Positions 41,807 to 48,056 of a stretch of DNA of 48,597 nucleotides are shown piece after piece. A program made the position numbers and the translations under genes. Under the pieces are notes generated by a model, which was not told the origin of the DNA, ran no database searches, and worked only from the letters and a program-made list of their open reading frames with translations. Positions within the stretch are counted from its first letter, which is position 1, and each line of letters begins with the position of its first letter. The stretch is taken from positions 1 through 48,597 of the IMG/VR virus record IMGVR_UViG_3300033551_000007. The stretch is one strand, 5' to 3'. This DNA comes from a virus.

Positions 41807-42136
41807 TTACTTCTTGCCGTTGCCGGTCGCCAGTTTCATCGCTTCGGCCTGGGCCGCTTCGACGATCTTTTTCGCTTCGGCCTGGGCGTCAGCGATCAGT
41901 TGCTTCGCTTCGGCCTGGGCCGCTTCGACGATCTTTTTCGCTTCGGCTTCCAGTTCCTTGCGCAGCTCGGCACGGATCGCCTCCAGGTCAACCGCAGGAG
42001 CGGCCGAGCCAGCGTCAGCCGACACGATACGGCTCGCATACAGCGGACTGGCGGCCTTCTCGGCGGTCAGCTTGACAGTGGCGCCGCGCTTCAAGTCGCC
42101 GATATCGGCGATCAAACGGTAGGTTTTCTTTTCCAT
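41807..42136 (-). CDS. Coiled-coil protein with hendecad repeats, behind the capsid gene
   Basis: 109 residues. The N-terminal 35 residues (YRLIADIGDLKRGATVKLTA) look like a small beta domain. Residues about 50-100 repeat an 11-residue unit (EAKKIVEAAQA, EAKQLIADAQA, EAKKIVEAAQA), a right-handed coiled coil as in LEA or apolipoprotein-like helices. The position right after the major capsid gene suggests a head-associated role. Two 41-bp identical DNA repeats underlie the helix. Confidence 0.6.
   Translation of the reverse strand: MEKKTYRLIADIGDLKRGATVKLTAEKAASPLYASRIVSADAGSAAPAVDLEAIRAELRKELEAEAKKIVEAAQAEAKQLIADAQAEAKKIVEAAQAEAMKLATGNGKK
41841..41881. repeat. 41-bp exact direct repeat, copy 1
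   Basis: Identical to 41907-41947, 66 bases apart, in the coding region of the hendecad repeats. Such identity implies a recent duplication or gene conversion. Confidence 0.85.
41907..41947. repeat. 41-bp exact direct repeat, copy 2
   Basis: Second copy of the repeat described at 41841-41881. Confidence 0.85.
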
Positions 42137-42137
42137 G

Positions 42138-43214
42138 TTATGGCGACCCGTAGAATACGCCTTTGCTCTTACCAGCAGCGTCGGCGCGGATTTGAAGGCC
42201 GGTAGCGGTCCACACCAGGACTTGGAAATCGTCCATCGGGGTTTTCCGTACCATCGGGGTGGAGGTCAGCGGCATACCGACGATCGGCTTGATGTAGCGC
42301 GCGTCGAGGATCACACCGGCAATCTCGTTGCCGCTGAAGTTCTTGTCGTACACGATGCCCGCGATTTCCGGGTTGTCCAGAACGATCGAAGCGATCGAGC
42401 GGGTCGAACCAACCACGCCGGCAATACGCGACATGTTCTGAATCACGGCGGACGAGGTGTAGAACTTGATGCGGCCAGTGGCGAACTGCAGGCGCATCGC
42501 GGCGATTACCTGGATGAAGAAGTTGTTCGCCTCTTCCAGGGTCAGGGTCGCCGAGGTCAGGTCAACCGCGGTAATGCCGCTGCCGCCGACCGACAGGTCA
42601 ACTGCCAGGGTGTTCGGACTGGTCTTGATGCCGTGACCGGTGTAGCCCTTGTACACCTTGGAGGTGTCGCCGTTGATCATGTAGTTCGCCGACTGGTCCT
42701 GAACTTCCAGGGTCGCACCGGACTGGTCTTCCAGCAGGCCGTCAAAGCCTTCCGAGCGCTCGCCTTCCAGTTCGCGCCAGGTGCGGCCGACTTGGGAAGT
42801 GTGCACCAGGACCAGCGTGCCGTCGTAGTCGTAGGTGCCGCGGTCCATCGGCTTTTTGTGCTGGCCGTCGATGGACGACTGCGCAGAGAACTCGCCGTTG
42901 GTACGACGGTACTCGCTGACGATCTTGCCGATGTTGACCGAACGGGCCAGCGGGGCCAGGTCGCGCAGCAGCTCGGACTCAGGATCACGGCCCAGGGCCA
43001 TGGTCTGAGTGTCGAAATCACGCCACACGGCTTCCAGGTCGCGCGCCGCGTTGACGGTCAGCGAGCCCATGGCCGGGGTATTGCGGTTGCCGAGTTGAGC
43101 GGCGAAAGTGTCCTCGTTTACTGCGAAATACTGACGCAGGTCGAGAACGTCGTCCCACTGGCGCGGGAGGCCGGGGTTACCGGCGATTCGTGCTTGGTCG
43201 AAAATGAACGACAT
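42138..43214 (-). CDS. Major capsid protein
   Basis: 358 residues. FDQARIAGNPGLPRQWDDVLDLR, SVNIGKIVSEYRR, DGTLVLVHTSQVGRTWREL and PMVRKTPMDDFQVLVWT fit the DUF6260-type capsid family in siphophages of Proteobacteria (HK97 fold). AAGGAGAACGTCAA precedes ATG 43214. Its place after a decoration-like and a protease/scaffold gene is classic. Confidence 0.8.
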   Translation of the reverse strand: MSFIFDQARIAGNPGLPRQWDDVLDLRQYFAVNEDTFAAQLGNRNTPAMGSLTVNAARDLEAVWRDFDTQTMALGRDPESELLRDLAPLARSVNIGKIVSEYRRTNGEFSAQSSIDGQHKKPMDRGTYDYDGTLVLVHTSQVGRTWRELEGERSEGFDGLLEDQSGATLEVQDQSANYMINGDTSKVYKGYTGHGIKTSPNTLAVDLSVGGSGITAVDLTSATLTLEEANNFFIQVIAAMRLQFATGRIKFYTSSAVIQNMSRIAGVVGSTRSIASIVLDNPEIAGIVYDKNFSGNEIAGVILDARYIKPIVGMPLTSTPMVRKTPMDDFQVLVWTATGLQIRADAAGKSKGVFYGSP

Positions 43215-43226
43215 TTGACGTTCTCC

Positions 43227-43640
43227 TTACTTGAACTTAATCGCGATGCGCTGATCGGCGACGGTTGCACCAGTAACGGCACCATCGGCGTAGCACACTG
43301 CGGTGGCGGCGTCGCTGACAACCAGGCGGCCGGTGGCGTTCGGGGTGAGTGGCGCGTCGGCGGCGATGGTCTGTGCGGCAGCAGCGCGGCCGGTGAACAG
43401 GTCACCGCTGTGCGTGTCGTACAGGCGCTGGGTGTCGGTAGCGACCGGCACGTCGTCAATGCCGCCGTGCAGCTGCTCGCCCCACACATAGGCGGGCAGG
43501 CCCGCTACTGCGCCGGCGCCGTCCAGGCCGACAACACAGCCCGGCAGACGGGCAGCGGCGGATGCCAGGATGACTTCGGTGGTCTCGGGAGTGGTGCGGT
43601 GGACACCGCCACGCCATACCTTGTTCGGAACGTAAGCCAT
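43227..43640 (-). CDS. Possible capsid decoration protein
   Basis: 137 residues, beta-rich and Ala/Gly/Val-rich (ASAAARLPGCVVGLDG, TGRLVVSDAATAVCYADGAV). Placed between protease/scaffold and major capsid genes, where head-stabilising (lambda D-like) proteins are encoded. Called by position and composition. Confidence 0.55.
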   Translation of the reverse strand: MAYVPNKVWRGGVHRTTPETTEVILASAAARLPGCVVGLDGAGAVAGLPAYVWGEQLHGGIDDVPVATDTQRLYDTHSGDLFTGRAAAAQTIAADAPLTPNATGRLVVSDAATAVCYADGAVTGATVADQRIAIKFK

Positions 43641-43652
43641 GGTCAGCTCTCC

Positions 43653-43985
43653 TTATTTCGGCATTTCGGCGCGAGCACGGGGCTTCACGTCGGAACGGTT
43701 GACGGACAGTTGACCTTCGGGAACGTCGGTCGCCGGTTTGACTTTCGCGAGGGTGGCGCGCAGGGCGTTTACCGACAGTTCGGCTGCGGCGTCAGCGCCG
43801 ATGTGGGCGGCCACTTCGGTGCGCAGCGCTTCGGTTTCGGCTGCTTCGCCTTTACCGACCTGAGCCTCCAGGGCGGTGAGGCGGTCCAGTACGGGGGCCA
43901 GGGCGCCGGTTACGGCCTCCGAGGCATTCACTTTCAGGTCAGCGGCGATACCCTCGCGCAGAGCCTGGATTTGTTCTGGCGACAT
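43653..43985 (-). CDS. Nested in-frame scaffold protein
   Basis: 110 residues starting MSPEQIQALREGIAADLKVN inside the protease gene. A perfect AGGAGG lies 8 bases before ATG 43985, unlikely to be chance in the middle of a coding region. Same frame as the protease, so the product is its helical C-terminus, like lambda Nu3 within C. Confidence 0.65.
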   Translation of the reverse strand: MSPEQIQALREGIAADLKVNASEAVTGALAPVLDRLTALEAQVGKGEAAETEALRTEVAAHIGADAAAELSVNALRATLAKVKPATDVPEGQLSVNRSDVKPRARAEMPK

Positions 43986-44876
43986 ATCGTCAGCCTCCTG
44001 AGTTGTGGTTTGCACGTCGAAGTTTAACGCGCCACGATTGAAAACGCTATTCGCCAGAATTTGCCACTGACTTTTGCGTACTGCCGGACGAACGGCCTCC
44101 GCCAAATTGGCCACCGCGCCGCTCATTTCGTAGTCGACTGCAACGTAGCGATTCGCTGGTGCCGGCCCGTCTGACCGCTGTTCCAGTTCGAACACGGCGG
44201 TTTGGTCGGTGAAGTCTGCCAGCCAGACGTACAGCTCGGGCCAGCGAGCCACGCCAGCGGCGCGCAGTACCTCGTGTTTTTCTTGCTGGGTCATGCCGGT
44301 CAGCGTGCCGGCGTCGACGTTGACGAACAGGCCGACGCCCTGGTCAACGCCTGCAGCAGGCGCTTCGCCGATCAGAATTGCGTCGTGGTCAATGGCCAGG
44401 TATTCGGCACGGCCGCTGTACGGCAGGCCCTCGGCGACCGGGTGCACGCGCAGCCACACCGCGATAGACGTGCTGATCGGCTCGCCCTTTTCGATAGCCG
44501 CCAGTACTTCCGGACCTCGCTCGGTCGCGTTGGCGAATAGCACGTCAATCCACTTCTCGACGTGCACCCGACCGTCTTCGCCCAGCGTCACGTTACGGTT
44601 GAACGCCCCGACGTGGTTCGCATGGATCGCCACCGGGTCGCCGGCACTAATCCACTTACCGCTGGCATCCTTGGGGTGCCCGAGAGGGGCCAGCTTGCCG
44701 TCCAACTGGGTGTAGGTTCGCGCGGTTTCCTCCGCCGGGTACAGGACGCCGTTCATCACTATATTCGGCGGCAGCGTTGCGGACGGCACGATAACGTACT
44801 CGCGACCGTCGACGGTTTCGCGCCGGATTTTCGAATTGTCGACCGCCGTGAAGGCGTTTACGCGTAGCTCCCGCAT
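43653..44876 (-). CDS. DUF2213-type capsid maturation protease fused to scaffold
   Basis: 407 residues. The N-terminal 210 (VPSATLPPNIVMNGVLYP, LGHPKDASGKWISAG, ISTSIAVWLRVHPVAEG, LAIDHDAILIGEAPAAG) match the DUF2213 prohead protease family; HP in LGHPK, the Ser in STSIA and the His in IDHDA are candidate catalytic residues. The C-terminal 105 are a helical scaffold with a coiled coil (PVLDRLTALEAQVGKG). ATG follows AGGAGG. An internal start (43985) makes the scaffold alone. Confidence 0.72.
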   Translation of the reverse strand: MRELRVNAFTAVDNSKIRRETVDGREYVIVPSATLPPNIVMNGVLYPAEETARTYTQLDGKLAPLGHPKDASGKWISAGDPVAIHANHVGAFNRNVTLGEDGRVHVEKWIDVLFANATERGPEVLAAIEKGEPISTSIAVWLRVHPVAEGLPYSGRAEYLAIDHDAILIGEAPAAGVDQGVGLFVNVDAGTLTGMTQQEKHEVLRAAGVARWPELYVWLADFTDQTAVFELEQRSDGPAPANRYVAVDYEMSGAVANLAEAVRPAVRKSQWQILANSVFNRGALNFDVQTTTQEADDMSPEQIQALREGIAADLKVNASEAVTGALAPVLDRLTALEAQVGKGEAAETEALRTEVAAHIGADAAAELSVNALRATLAKVKPATDVPEGQLSVNRSDVKPRARAEMPK

Positions 44877-44934: not shown

Positions 44935-46206
44935 ATGGCTACCCCCGAAGAACGCGCCCGCGCCGGGATGCTGCGCACGATGGGCCTGGACAACAAACGG
45001 CCGGACGCTTGGGCCGAGTACGGCTACAAGGAAAAGCTCGGATTCCAGGATTTCTACAACCTGTATACGCGGCACGGCGTGGCGGCGGGCGTGGTCGATC
45101 GGATCGCCGAGAAGGTCTTCCAGACCGCCCCATGGGTGATCCAGGGTACGAAAGACGACGAGCGGACTACCGAAACGGCGTGGGAAAAGGAGTTTGCGAC
45201 CCTGGCCGAGGACACGGACCTCTGGTGGTACCTCAAGGAAGCGTATGGCATGCGCATGGTCGGCGCATGGTCCGGCCTGATCCTCAAGTTTGCCAACGGC
45301 AAGGACGGCGAGACTCTGGCCGACGCAGTGACCGGCTCGCCTGTGCTCGAAGACCTGGTGCCGGTATGGCGCGGCCAGCTCCAGCCAGCCACCCGCGACG
45401 CCCTGGGCAACGTGACGATGTGGAACTACACGCCGACCGGCTTTGACGCCACGGACCTCGAAAACAGCCCACCGGTTCAGCTGCACCCTGACCGCCTGTA
45501 CATTGTCGGCGACTACAAGCGCGGGCGGTCGATGTTAGAACCCGGCTTTAACGCGTTCGTCGACATGGAGAAGGTGACGGGCGGTTCTGGCGAGGGTTAC
45601 CTGAAGAACGCGGCGCGCCAAATCCATATCAACTACGAGTCCGACGCGGAACCGACTAAGCCAGGTCAGCCCGACGACGAAGTCGCCGAAGAGTTGAACC
45701 AGCAGGCCAAGGCCTTGAACACCCGCCAGGACTTGGTACTGGCTACTCAAGGTGCCGAGGTGGGTATTCTCTCTGCGGCTCTGCCCGATCCTGAAAAGCC
45801 GTTCACCGTATCGCTGCAGGTCGCCATGGCGTCGTTCCGTACGGCCGCCCGCCTCGTGGTCGGCAGCCAGACCGGCGAGCGTGCCAGTGTCGAAGATATC
45901 CGCGATTTCAACGAGCGCTGCCAGGGTGACCGCGAGGGCGAAGTGGCCCGGGAGATTCGCGGCATGGTCCGCCACCTGGAGCGCGTGAAGGCGATCAAAC
46001 CCGCAGGCCGCATTACTGTGATGTGGGACGACCTGGCCGAGCCGACCGCTACTGACCGTGCTGACCTGGCTTACAAAATGGCGCAAACCAACCAAGCCAA
46101 CACCAGTACTGGCGACCCTGTCTACAGCGCCGACGAAATCCGCATCGCCGCGGGGCACGAAGCCGGTGCGCCTCAGCCGGATCTGCCAGAAGACGAGGAC
46201 GTGTAA
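44935..46206 (+). CDS. Portal protein (DUF1073 type)
   Basis: 423 residues. YTRHGVAAGVVDRIAEKVFQTAPWV, EAYGMRMVGAWSGLILKFANG, VPVWRGQLQPA, HPDRLYIVGDYKRGRSMLEPGF, MASFRTAARLVVGSQTGERAS and DIRDFNERCQGDREGEVAREIR are typical of DUF1073 portals, the dodecameric ring for DNA entry. The 58 bases before it hold no clear promoter. Its stop TAA is followed by the gp7-like gene. Confidence 0.85.
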   Translation: MATPEERARAGMLRTMGLDNKRPDAWAEYGYKEKLGFQDFYNLYTRHGVAAGVVDRIAEKVFQTAPWVIQGTKDDERTTETAWEKEFATLAEDTDLWWYLKEAYGMRMVGAWSGLILKFANGKDGETLADAVTGSPVLEDLVPVWRGQLQPATRDALGNVTMWNYTPTGFDATDLENSPPVQLHPDRLYIVGDYKRGRSMLEPGFNAFVDMEKVTGGSGEGYLKNAARQIHINYESDAEPTKPGQPDDEVAEELNQQAKALNTRQDLVLATQGAEVGILSAALPDPEKPFTVSLQVAMASFRTAARLVVGSQTGERASVEDIRDFNERCQGDREGEVAREIRGMVRHLERVKAIKPAGRITVMWDDLAEPTATDRADLAYKMAQTNQANTSTGDPVYSADEIRIAAGHEAGAPQPDLPEDEDV

Positions 46207-48056
46207 TGGGCCAGCCTATTCTGCCAACCAACGAAGCCGACCCCTCTGGTCAAGCGCGGCGCGAACGGGGCGCCATGAACGAAATGGGCAAGCGCGTGCG
46301 CCGGTGCGGCAAGGCGTACCGCGATGCCCTCTCGCAGATCCAGTTTCTCGCCGTGAACGTCGAGCGCTATGAGTTCCTGACCAGTGTTGACGCTATCGAT
46401 CTGCTGCTGGCTGACTTGGCGCGTATCGTTGACGCGACGATGAACGAAGGCGGCCGGTGGCTGTTCACCGGTTACGTGCGCCCGGCCTATCAGCAAGGCA
46501 CGGCCAAGGCGAACGCCAGTATCGCCAACCAGTCGAAACTGTATGCCGATGCCCGGTCGCTTGAGCAGCTGTTGACCTCGCCGCCGTACCTGAAGCGCCT
46601 TTCGCTGTTGCGCGGGCGGATCTTCGAGAAGATGGAAGGCATCACGGCGGACGTCCAGCAGACGCTCGCCTCGACGCTGACCCAGGGCCTGGCCGACGGG
46701 GTGGGGCCGCTCGAAATCTCCAAGCGGATCACCGAATCGACCGGGATTGTCGAGCGCCGGGCCAACAACATCGCACGGACAGAAACGGGCGAGGCGCTGC
46801 GCGAGGGCCGTCTGGCCGAGACGGAGGACGCCCGGTCGATCGGTGTGAACGTGGGCGTGATGCACTTGAGTGCGCTGAGTCCTACCACAAGAATTTCGCA
46901 TGCACGCAGGCACGGGGGTATTTTTTCGGTTCAGGAAGAGCGCGCTTGGTATGCACAAGACGGCAACCGGTACAACTGCTACCTGCCTGGAACGCGCGTG
47001 GCAGGCCGTTTCATAGCAGGTTCAAAAGCCCGTTACGAGGGGCCTGCCGTACGTCTCGTGACTGCTTCGGGATACGACCTGCGCGTTACCCCGAATCACC
47101 CCGTGATGACCGCTCGCGGGCTTCTGCCGGCCGCAGAACTCCGCAAAGGCGATCACCTTGTCACGCACCGCCCCCAGGTCGAAGCTCCCGCCGGGGGCGG
47201 TGACCTGTATGGTCAACTGCGAGAAGCCCCGATTGAGGAAGTCTTCCGTTCGCTTGTGGATCTCGGCCATTCGCTGTTTGTCGGGGTGACTGCTGTAGAT
47301 TTCCACGGCGATGCCGCGCACATCGAGGAGGATATCCACGTTGTAGTGGCCGATCGGGTACTGCCCCTGGCAGTGGACGCCCACCTCGCGCAGTGCTTGG
47401 ATGAGTTCAAGTTCGTACTTGCCGACTCGACGGCTGCCGGTAAGGGCTCGCAGGCGCTTAGTTTCCGCCGTGTCAATTCGGCCCCGACTAGCCTCGTGGG
47501 CGGGGGCGGTGACGGCGAATTTGCCGCGACCCTTCCGCAGCAGCGCGGCCGCGGAACGACTTCGCGAACCTACCCCGCGTTCGGCAAACCATCGGTTCAA
47601 TGTAATTCGAGACACGCCAGTCTCAGCGCTGATCTGCTGGACCGGGACCCCGCTCTCGTGCCGGGCGATCAAGGCCTCAATATCGAACCGATCGGACAGC
47701 TTCGGGGCGAGGTTCTCGAATCGCAGGCCACGCTCGTCGAGAAGCCACTGGTAGAGGGTCCTACCGGACACTTGGGCGGTGTCCGCGACCTGCTGGAGCG
47801 ACATTCCGCCACGGCACAGCTCGATGAGGTGATCGAGGTCAGCGAGTTCTCGTTTAGTGGGCATGTTTACGACCTTGAGGAATTATCAGGCCTTATGATA
47901 GCGAATGGTGTAATGGCGAGCAACTGCAAATGCTCCCCGTCTGAGATACTGCTGAACGATGACGGTACCCCCGCTTTCCCGGATGTGGTGAAACGCACCC
48001 AGGCTGCCCGGGCGCGGTTCGTTGAGACTGCCGAACGTGGCAAGTCAGAGCGTTAG
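46206..48056 (+). CDS. SPP1 gp7 / Mu gpF-like head protein interrupted by an intein
   Basis: 616 residues as translated, 300 without the intein (258-573). Extein: GKRVRRCGKAYRDALSQIQF, GLADGVGPLEISKRITESTG, ERRANNIARTETGEALREGR and SPTTRISHARRHGG belong to the minor head protein family of SPP1 gp7 and Mu F, which bind the portal. The intein splits the conserved NRYN-CKCSPSE motif (NC[RK]C in relatives) before its first Cys. Converges with the minus-strand gene that spans the contig ends. Confidence 0.88.
   Translation: MGQPILPTNEADPSGQARRERGAMNEMGKRVRRCGKAYRDALSQIQFLAVNVERYEFLTSVDAIDLLLADLARIVDATMNEGGRWLFTGYVRPAYQQGTAKANASIANQSKLYADARSLEQLLTSPPYLKRLSLLRGRIFEKMEGITADVQQTLASTLTQGLADGVGPLEISKRITESTGIVERRANNIARTETGEALREGRLAETEDARSIGVNVGVMHLSALSPTTRISHARRHGGIFSVQEERAWYAQDGNRYNCYLPGTRVAGRFIAGSKARYEGPAVRLVTASGYDLRVTPNHPVMTARGLLPAAELRKGDHLVTHRPQVEAPAGGGDLYGQLREAPIEEVFRSLVDLGHSLFVGVTAVDFHGDAAHIEEDIHVVVADRVLPLAVDAHLAQCLDEFKFVLADSTAAGKGSQALSFRRVNSAPTSLVGGGGDGEFAATLPQQRGRGTTSRTYPAFGKPSVQCNSRHASLSADLLDRDPALVPGDQGLNIEPIGQLRGEVLESQATLVEKPLVEGPTGHLGGVRDLLERHSATAQLDEVIEVSEFSFSGHVYDLEELSGLMIANGVMASNCKCSPSEILLNDDGTPAFPDVVKRTQAARARFVETAERGKSER
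47022..47864 (-). CDS. Antisense homing endonuclease: two HTHs plus PD-(D/E)XK core
   Basis: 280 residues, entirely within the intein, on the other strand and in exact codon register with it. HTH 1: SLQQVADTAQVSGRTLYQWL (22-41). HTH 2: PVQQISAETGVSRITLNRWF (74-93). A basic linker follows (RSRSAAALLRKGRGK). From 150, YELELIQALREVGVHC, IGHYNVDILLD (Asp177) and GIAVEIY (Glu188), then RTEDFLNRGF form a Vsr/EDxHD-like fold. E-x-Y stands where E-x-K is usual. ATG 47864 has AAGG eight bases upstream and a candidate promoter. Equally long antisense frames over other genes lack such domains, so the call rests on motifs. Confidence 0.75.
   Translation of the reverse strand: MPTKRELADLDHLIELCRGGMSLQQVADTAQVSGRTLYQWLLDERGLRFENLAPKLSDRFDIEALIARHESGVPVQQISAETGVSRITLNRWFAERGVGSRSRSAAALLRKGRGKFAVTAPAHEASRGRIDTAETKRLRALTGSRRVGKYELELIQALREVGVHCQGQYPIGHYNVDILLDVRGIAVEIYSSHPDKQRMAEIHKRTEDFLNRGFSQLTIQVTAPGGSFDLGAVRDKVIAFAEFCGRQKPASGHHGVIRGNAQVVSRSSHETYGRPLVTGF
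47895..47923 (-). promoter_or_regulatory. Candidate promoter for the antisense endonuclease
   Basis: Minus strand: TTGCTC, 17-base spacer, TATCAT, 30 bases before ATG 47864. It lies inside the codons of intein block G and the splice junction, so it would be present only when the intein is. Confidence 0.4.

Follow-up and report, generated by a model that had tools for sequence, protein, structure and literature searches.

An intein within a MuF head morphogenesis gene

The window, i.e., the whole stretch of DNA that was analysed (48,597 nucleotides), contains near its end a gene for a MuF/SPP1 gp7-like head morphogenesis protein of 616 aa (46206..48056, + strand; Pfam Phage_Mu_F, E 2.7e-12; phrog_758, E 2.5e-88). 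The gene is interrupted by an intein of 316 aa that extends from Cys258 to Asn573 (46977..47924, + strand), between the extein sequences ...RYN and CKCSP. This intein matched the Pfam family Intein_splicing with 28.3 bits, a score below the curated cut-off of 35.8 bits; the same profile matched 69 of 70 relatives of the intein. Among these 70 relatives, the class 1 Hint residues C1, T38, N40, and H41 were invariant or nearly so, and the window intein has both the N-terminal Cys and the T-x-x-H of block B. Block B (T-P-N-H-P; 47088..47102, + strand) lies opposite residues ...V-I-R-G of the nuclease described below, and its N40 and H41 are invariant in alignment A8. The intein ends with blocks F and G as ...HVYDLEELSGLMIANGVMASN|C, with N316 invariant among the relatives; the penultimate residue is Ser and not the usual His, which is found in many relatives.

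In the AF2 model, the Hint part of the intein had a pLDDT >95, and the predicted fold matched the Mtu RecA intein (2in8) with a VIA Z of 12.0 over 105 residues (rmsd 1.4). Residues 85-143 of the sense model were fairly well ordered, and residues 153-263 were mostly disordered (pLDDT <50). An intein-free MuF homologue is present in Phage TPWB-08, which reads RRNNCKCSPSE at the insertion site and has an extein DNA identity of 74%; the insertion absent from this homologue is precise and in frame. Judged by its sequence, the element is a class 1 intein with a Hint domain, and from this anatomy and that of the relatives we infer that it splices.

A nuclease gene on the opposite strand

The strand opposite the intein contains a nested gene of 280 aa (47022..47864, - strand) for a putative EDxHD/Vsr-like homing endonuclease, recognised through tblastn relatives, a PDB profile, an AF2 model, and VIA comparisons. 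Its frame is in codon-for-codon register with the intein and is free of stops over 286 codons, which correspond to intein residues 17-302. The initial annotation had described this register, with sense D-F-H-G opposite A-V-E-I, and all its coordinates proved exact.

Nuclease residues 8-95 (47580..47843, - strand) contain two helix-turn-helix (HTH) modules, which would form a DNA-binding arm (Pfam HTH_7 and HTH_23; match to 2lvs, E 7e-10); the sense stretch opposite the two modules is a largely disordered shadow. In five relatives (L003, L004, L015, L018, and L020) the nuclease has one HTH module instead of two, and the inteins are therefore shorter, about 270 versus 316 aa.

The catalytic domain (residues 146-246; 47127..47429, - strand) contains residues that are invariant or nearly so over 155 clusters: E151, Y174, N175, D177, A186, E188, and R205. 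These include the acidic residues expected for the active site, the Glu of the helix (E151, 152/155 clusters) and the Asp and Glu of the strands. Asp177 (GAT; 47334..47336, - strand; 155/155 clusters) lies opposite sense Ile377 (ATC), and Glu188 (GAA; 47301..47303, - strand; 154/155 clusters) lies opposite sense Phe366 (TTC), so that the active-site strand faces DFHGD with the pairings first annotated. For the remaining EDxHD residues, the His and the final Asp, the sequence columns give a less clear picture, H193 being found in 93/153 clusters.

Pfam searches with the antisense protein returned mainly HTH matches and, for the nuclease domain of the window, weak DUF559/MTES_1575 scores; therefore, PDB profiles and folds were used. 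The PDB profile search matched I-Bth0305I (3r3p) at E 3.1e-6. The AF2 model of the nuclease (pLDDT 89.7) matched Vsr (1cw0) with a VIA Z of 12.2 (rmsd 2.6, 114 residues aligned) and the I-Bth0305I domain (3r3p) with a Z of 10.6 (rmsd 2.8, 94 aligned), and has a PD-(D/E)XK-like Vsr fold. According to this model, the antisense protein is a two-HTH nuclease of the Vsr/I-Bth0305I fold.

The putative ATG start of the nuclease (47862..47864, - strand) is the complement of CAT, the codon of the block F His (G-H-V-Y-D-L). A Shine-Dalgarno-like AAGG (47873..47876, - strand) is located 8 bases before the ATG and is likewise the complement of block F coding sequence. Codon choice was counted in the 103 relatives whose block F could be recognised. 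Here CAT encoded the His in 95/103, compared to 181/485 in exteins; the block F Leu codon was CTC in 82/103, compared to 21%; and a Shine-Dalgarno-like word preceded the ATG in 85/103, against a background of 8% for the same window placed elsewhere. As read from these sequences, the start codon and Shine-Dalgarno site within splicing block F are made of selected codons. A scan of the window for promoters and terminators recognised neither a sigma-70-like promoter nor a terminator for the antisense gene.

Distribution of the double-sided unit

A tblastn search found relatives of the nuclease in 46 phage records; almost all of them lie opposite a MuF gene, and among the records examined no separate gene had been annotated for any of them. 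The antisense frame with YNxD...AVE lies opposite the same intein in phages of Pseudomonas, Vibrio, Cronobacter, Klebsiella, Edwardsiella, Aggregatibacter, Salmonella, Pantoea, Idiomarina, and Gordonia. All 18 MuF inteins examined, including that of Aaphi23 (~41% GC), have an antisense-register frame that is open across the intein and contains YNxD...E. Scans of viral and genome contigs added more than 200 nuclease loci. These scans were seeded with sub-alignments, the full 16-sequence nuclease alignment being too divergent as a seed; sub-alignment A6 returned no matches in them.

At 70% amino acid identity, the nucleases fall into 155 clusters, with one free-standing nuclease counted in. In the great majority of clusters for which both ends could be placed, the intein is inserted before CRC-type codons of MuF. 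The complement is fully open opposite the nuclease in 231 of 233 loci, and 232 of 233 have a Hint-profile match in register on the complementary strand, in agreement with the early proposal of a widespread dual-coding family. The two exceptions to openness are a partial match (L234) and the free-standing nuclease (L227:2794-3660, + strand). The latter overlaps the terminal part of a MuF gene without an interruption (...HPGCRC...), has five stops in its complement, and is a possible ancestor or escaped form of the nuclease.

In Virus Rctr197k (L244:1602-2954), the same intein-nuclease unit is found in an extein that resembles dCMP/cytidine deaminase (PCVA|CAKRLINLG); the record labels the product a head morphogenesis protein.

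The window has a GC content of 62%, at which the chance of an open complement is about 0.14, and long antisense open reading frames are common in it. With so many antisense frames in a GC-rich window, openness alone means little, and the sequence comparisons decide whether the antisense frame is real. A 630-aa open frame at 42135-44027 (+ strand), for example, runs opposite minus-strand genes.

The number of stops expected in the complement was computed from extein codon usage by GC group. For 134 nucleases, 725 stops were expected and none was observed, with the limitation that decayed copies are under-sampled because most loci were found via the nuclease. In the group with the lowest GC content (36-45%), about 12 stops were expected for each nuclease, and the frame is open.

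We compared substitutions per codon between pairs of related phages. The values for codon positions 1/2/3 are 0.139/0.091/0.347 in the N-exteins and 0.303/0.094/0.170 in the intein middle, as totals that pool overlapping pairs drawn from a few lineages. Between the window and L010, the changes at positions 1/2/3 number 14/5/56 against 18/3/3 in the intein middle. The pattern in the intein middle is reversed relative to the N-exteins; therefore, the protected frame is that of the nuclease in the intein middle and that of the sense protein in the N-exteins.

Inteins were also collected through the sense strand, a check suggested at the outset, using only the N-half of the sense protein as query against phages and about 1,190 genomes. 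Seventeen newly examined loci had a full-length match; two of them (L245 and L250) are the same as L024 and L031, which were already in the set. The 15 that remain all contain the nuclease in exact register, and 14 of them have an FHGD-like core. About 37 conventional inteins and Hint proteins were matched mainly around block B, and these have neither the FHGD motif nor this nuclease. The one exception to the FHGD core, in Mycobacterium phage Sejanus (L239:1709-5020), reads DFDVED with LDIEI in the nuclease. Sejanus has kept the nuclease and lost the sense HGD, and its insertion is upstream of NCRC; it provides a natural test of the need for DFHGD.

Selection on both strands at the DFHGD block

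The sense residues D365-F366-H367-G368-D369 (47298..47312, + strand) lie opposite nuclease residues 185-189 (I-A-V-E-I), which include Glu188. Using 154 clusters, we compared the conservation of each strand to that expected from the residues of the other strand and codon usage. For nuclease residues 61-184, the nuclease is conserved in large excess, and the sense strand shows no excess. Opposite splicing blocks A-B (nuclease residues 251-280), the excess is mostly on the sense strand and not in the nuclease; in the block B region, the constraint is on the sense strand and the nuclease is mostly a shadow. Opposite DFHGD (residues 185-189), both strands show a large excess. The sense excess over the shadow expectation has z of about 26-38 at columns 185-188 and 11 at column 189, and the nuclease excess has z of about 28-36 at residues 186-188; the size of these scores is inflated because related clusters were treated as independent, and the effects are still very large.

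Codon choice within the block is nearly fixed, although synonymous changes in the nuclease codons would be expected to vary the sense residues opposite A186, V187, and E188; the same residues elsewhere in the nuclease mix their codons. A186 is encoded by GCC in 146/150, compared to 217/549 at four other conserved Ala columns; V187 by GTG in 134/141, compared to 15/89 at V84; and E188 by GAA in 120/153, compared to 168/328 at three other Glu columns. The sense motif [FL]HGD is present in 128/154 clusters. Upstream of DFHGD, the sense element I-E-E-V-F (I-E-x-V-F, columns 207-211; 47232..47246, + strand) is also conserved beyond the nuclease shadow, with sense z of 45 (F), 24 (E), and 14 (I) at nuclease columns 207, 210, and 211; sense column 184 is likewise over-conserved. 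The flanking sense V/I-x-V-V opposite YNxD behaves as a shadow.

The initial annotation had suggested that DFHGD may be conserved because it is the shadow of a nuclease active site. The idea of a shadow holds for most of the insert and fails for DFHGD itself, where the codon tests reject it as the sole explanation. Comparison of the aligned sequences indicates that DFHGD is constrained twice, with selection acting on each of the two strands. As a working guess, its role in the intein is structural, within the segment inserted between the Hint halves.

A possible second nuclease family in Gordonia phages

Gordonia phage Nordenberg (L237:1496-4603) harbors a different intein, without DFHGD, at the same MuF codon; inteins of this type are also found in Sitar, Lennon, Thing3, SchottB, and Barsten. 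The Nordenberg frame in antisense register is LAGLIDADG-like (AAYVAAFIDGEG), with matches to I-MsoI (E 1.6e-4) and to the endonuclease phrog_5046 (E 2e-15) and none in Pfam. Used as a query against viral_contigs, the LAGLIDADG-like sequence found no relatives. These sequence matches, from a single high-GC lineage, weakly suggest that antisense nesting also arose with a second nuclease family. Across Gordonia phages with exteins that are 93-99% identical in DNA, three different inteins, the Nordenberg type among them, occupy one codon, which fits mobile elements.

Discussion

Our main reading, to which we assign a probability of roughly 0.9, is that the locus is a mobile intein with a homing endonuclease nested in antisense. 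The two frames, their conservation, the start signals, the insertion site, and the folds are established by computation; splicing, expression, cleavage, and homing are read from the anatomy of the locus and its relatives. The plus strand would be translated as a single polypeptide of MuF head protein and intein, and self-excision of the Hint domain would rejoin the head protein at ...YN|CKC.... The nuclease would not be a domain of the intein; it would be made from a separate gene on the opposite strand, wholly within intein DNA, using its own ATG and the Shine-Dalgarno site embedded in block F. The most likely target of this two-HTH Vsr/EDxHD-type enzyme is the MuF gene without an intein, which it would cut at the N|CRC codons and into which repair would then copy the intein. 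The sense polypeptide between the splicing halves would be mostly translated nuclease shadow and would stay open since any stop would abolish the head protein. The exception would be DFHGD, whose five codons are constrained by their place in the intein and by the active-site strand of the nuclease alike.

That high GC content and selection on the intein produced the antisense frame as a by-product, without a functional nuclease, has a negligible probability. Several genes of the window carry long antisense frames, and above a GC content of 0.64 chance openness reaches about 0.39; however, the frame stays open at 36-45% GC, the catalytic residues are invariant, substitutions track the antisense frame, the start and Shine-Dalgarno codons are selected, the fold is that of a known nuclease, and a free-standing homologue exists. 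A chance open frame was rejected given 231/233 open complements and 725 expected stops against none. We also consider it very improbable that DFHGD is conserved solely as the shadow of the active site. The alternation of F and L at Phe366 follows GAA/GAG of Glu188, the neighbouring V/I opposite YNxD is pure shadow, and DFHGD and the nuclease always co-occur in the sample; yet A186, V187, and E188 hardly vary among their synonymous codons and keep those that preserve sense G, H, and F, and sense columns 207-211 and 184 are over-conserved as well.

If the nuclease is real, the codons of DFHGD might be frozen as a DNA- or RNA-level element, such as a binding or protective site for the nuclease, and not as a sense peptide. 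Nuclease-silent changes are suppressed at these codons, and DFHGD is not known to have a role in splicing. The changes that are tolerated, however, look like those of a protein (F and L, or H and Y, are exchanged; G and D hardly change), and sense residues 85-143 are predicted to be ordered while 153-263 mostly are not; on balance we judge such an element unlikely. Quite unlikely, too, is a role of the nuclease other than homing, through exclusion of competing intein-free phages or through regulation by the HTH modules. Those modules do resemble DNA-binding regulators, but a close relative of known structure is a homing endonuclease catalytic domain, and the strict common insertion site and the replacement of inteins in near-identical exteins fit homing.

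We put forward tentatively, at somewhat less than even odds, that antisense nesting is a general and repeatedly evolved intein design, and that in the EDxHD family the DFHGD block is essential to the intein, leaving the nuclease not free to decay. If true, such inteins would evade the usual homing cycle, in which elements invade, decay, and are lost.

Convincing cases of two antisense genes that overlap completely and each produce a conserved protein are rare. The present one is unusually strong: the 155 clusters serve as natural replicates, the free-standing copy serves as a control, and the start signals are selected. As far as the sequences tell, the double-sided intein/nuclease gene is shared by well over 100 different phages, and the nuclease probably spreads the insert. 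This changes the view of how the mobility of inteins can be encoded and accounts for much of the odd sequence in the middle of many phage head proteins as now annotated; a conserved nuclease gene is also missing from many phage records. The DFHGD/AVEI codon block, constrained twice, makes the family a system in which to study how proteins evolve when both strands are constrained.

Our literature search found no description of antisense endonucleases in inteins, although a preprint (10.1101/2025.01.02.630785) may overlap with this work. The ShiLan paper (PMC11855218) cites that preprint for overlapping frames in actinobacteriophages, so the preprint may already report part of the antisense-nuclease finding for Gordonia phages.

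Comparison with known systems

Mobile inteins with an in-frame LAGLIDADG or HNH endonuclease (PI-MtuI, PI-PkoII) resemble the window in their Hint domain, precise in-frame insertion, and mobility endonuclease. In the window, by contrast, the nuclease is of the EDxHD/Vsr type and is encoded by a separate gene on the opposite strand that overlaps both splicing halves. The fractured genes attributed to Dassa et al. (2009) reportedly consist of split inteins with a free-standing gene for a Vsr-like endonuclease between the halves. As in the window, inteins are paired there with a separately encoded endonuclease of this class; however, in the fractured genes the intein is split around the nuclease, whereas here the intein is continuous and both genes occupy the same bases.

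The catalytic fold and an HTH-tethered nuclease domain are shared with I-Bth0305I/EDxHD (PMC3943268; PDB 3r3p) and Vsr (PDB 1vsr, 1cw0). I-Bth0305I is encoded by a group I intron, and the window nuclease differs from it in domain layout, in its two N-terminal HTHs, and in its antisense nesting. The ShiLan domain of phage methylases (PMC11855218) is, like the window insert, read through in the frame of its host gene and contains a homing-type endonuclease in another frame. There, an HNH enzyme is encoded in the third frame of the same strand without a splicing domain, whereas the nuclease of the window is antisense, codon-registered, and within a real intein. With its antisense frame and Hint domain, the window does not qualify as a hidden endonuclease insertion of the ShiLan type. 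Ambigrammatic narnaviruses (PMC6884476) similarly have an open frame across the reverse complement of a gene; no function has been described for their reverse frame, whereas that of the window encodes a recognisable enzyme.
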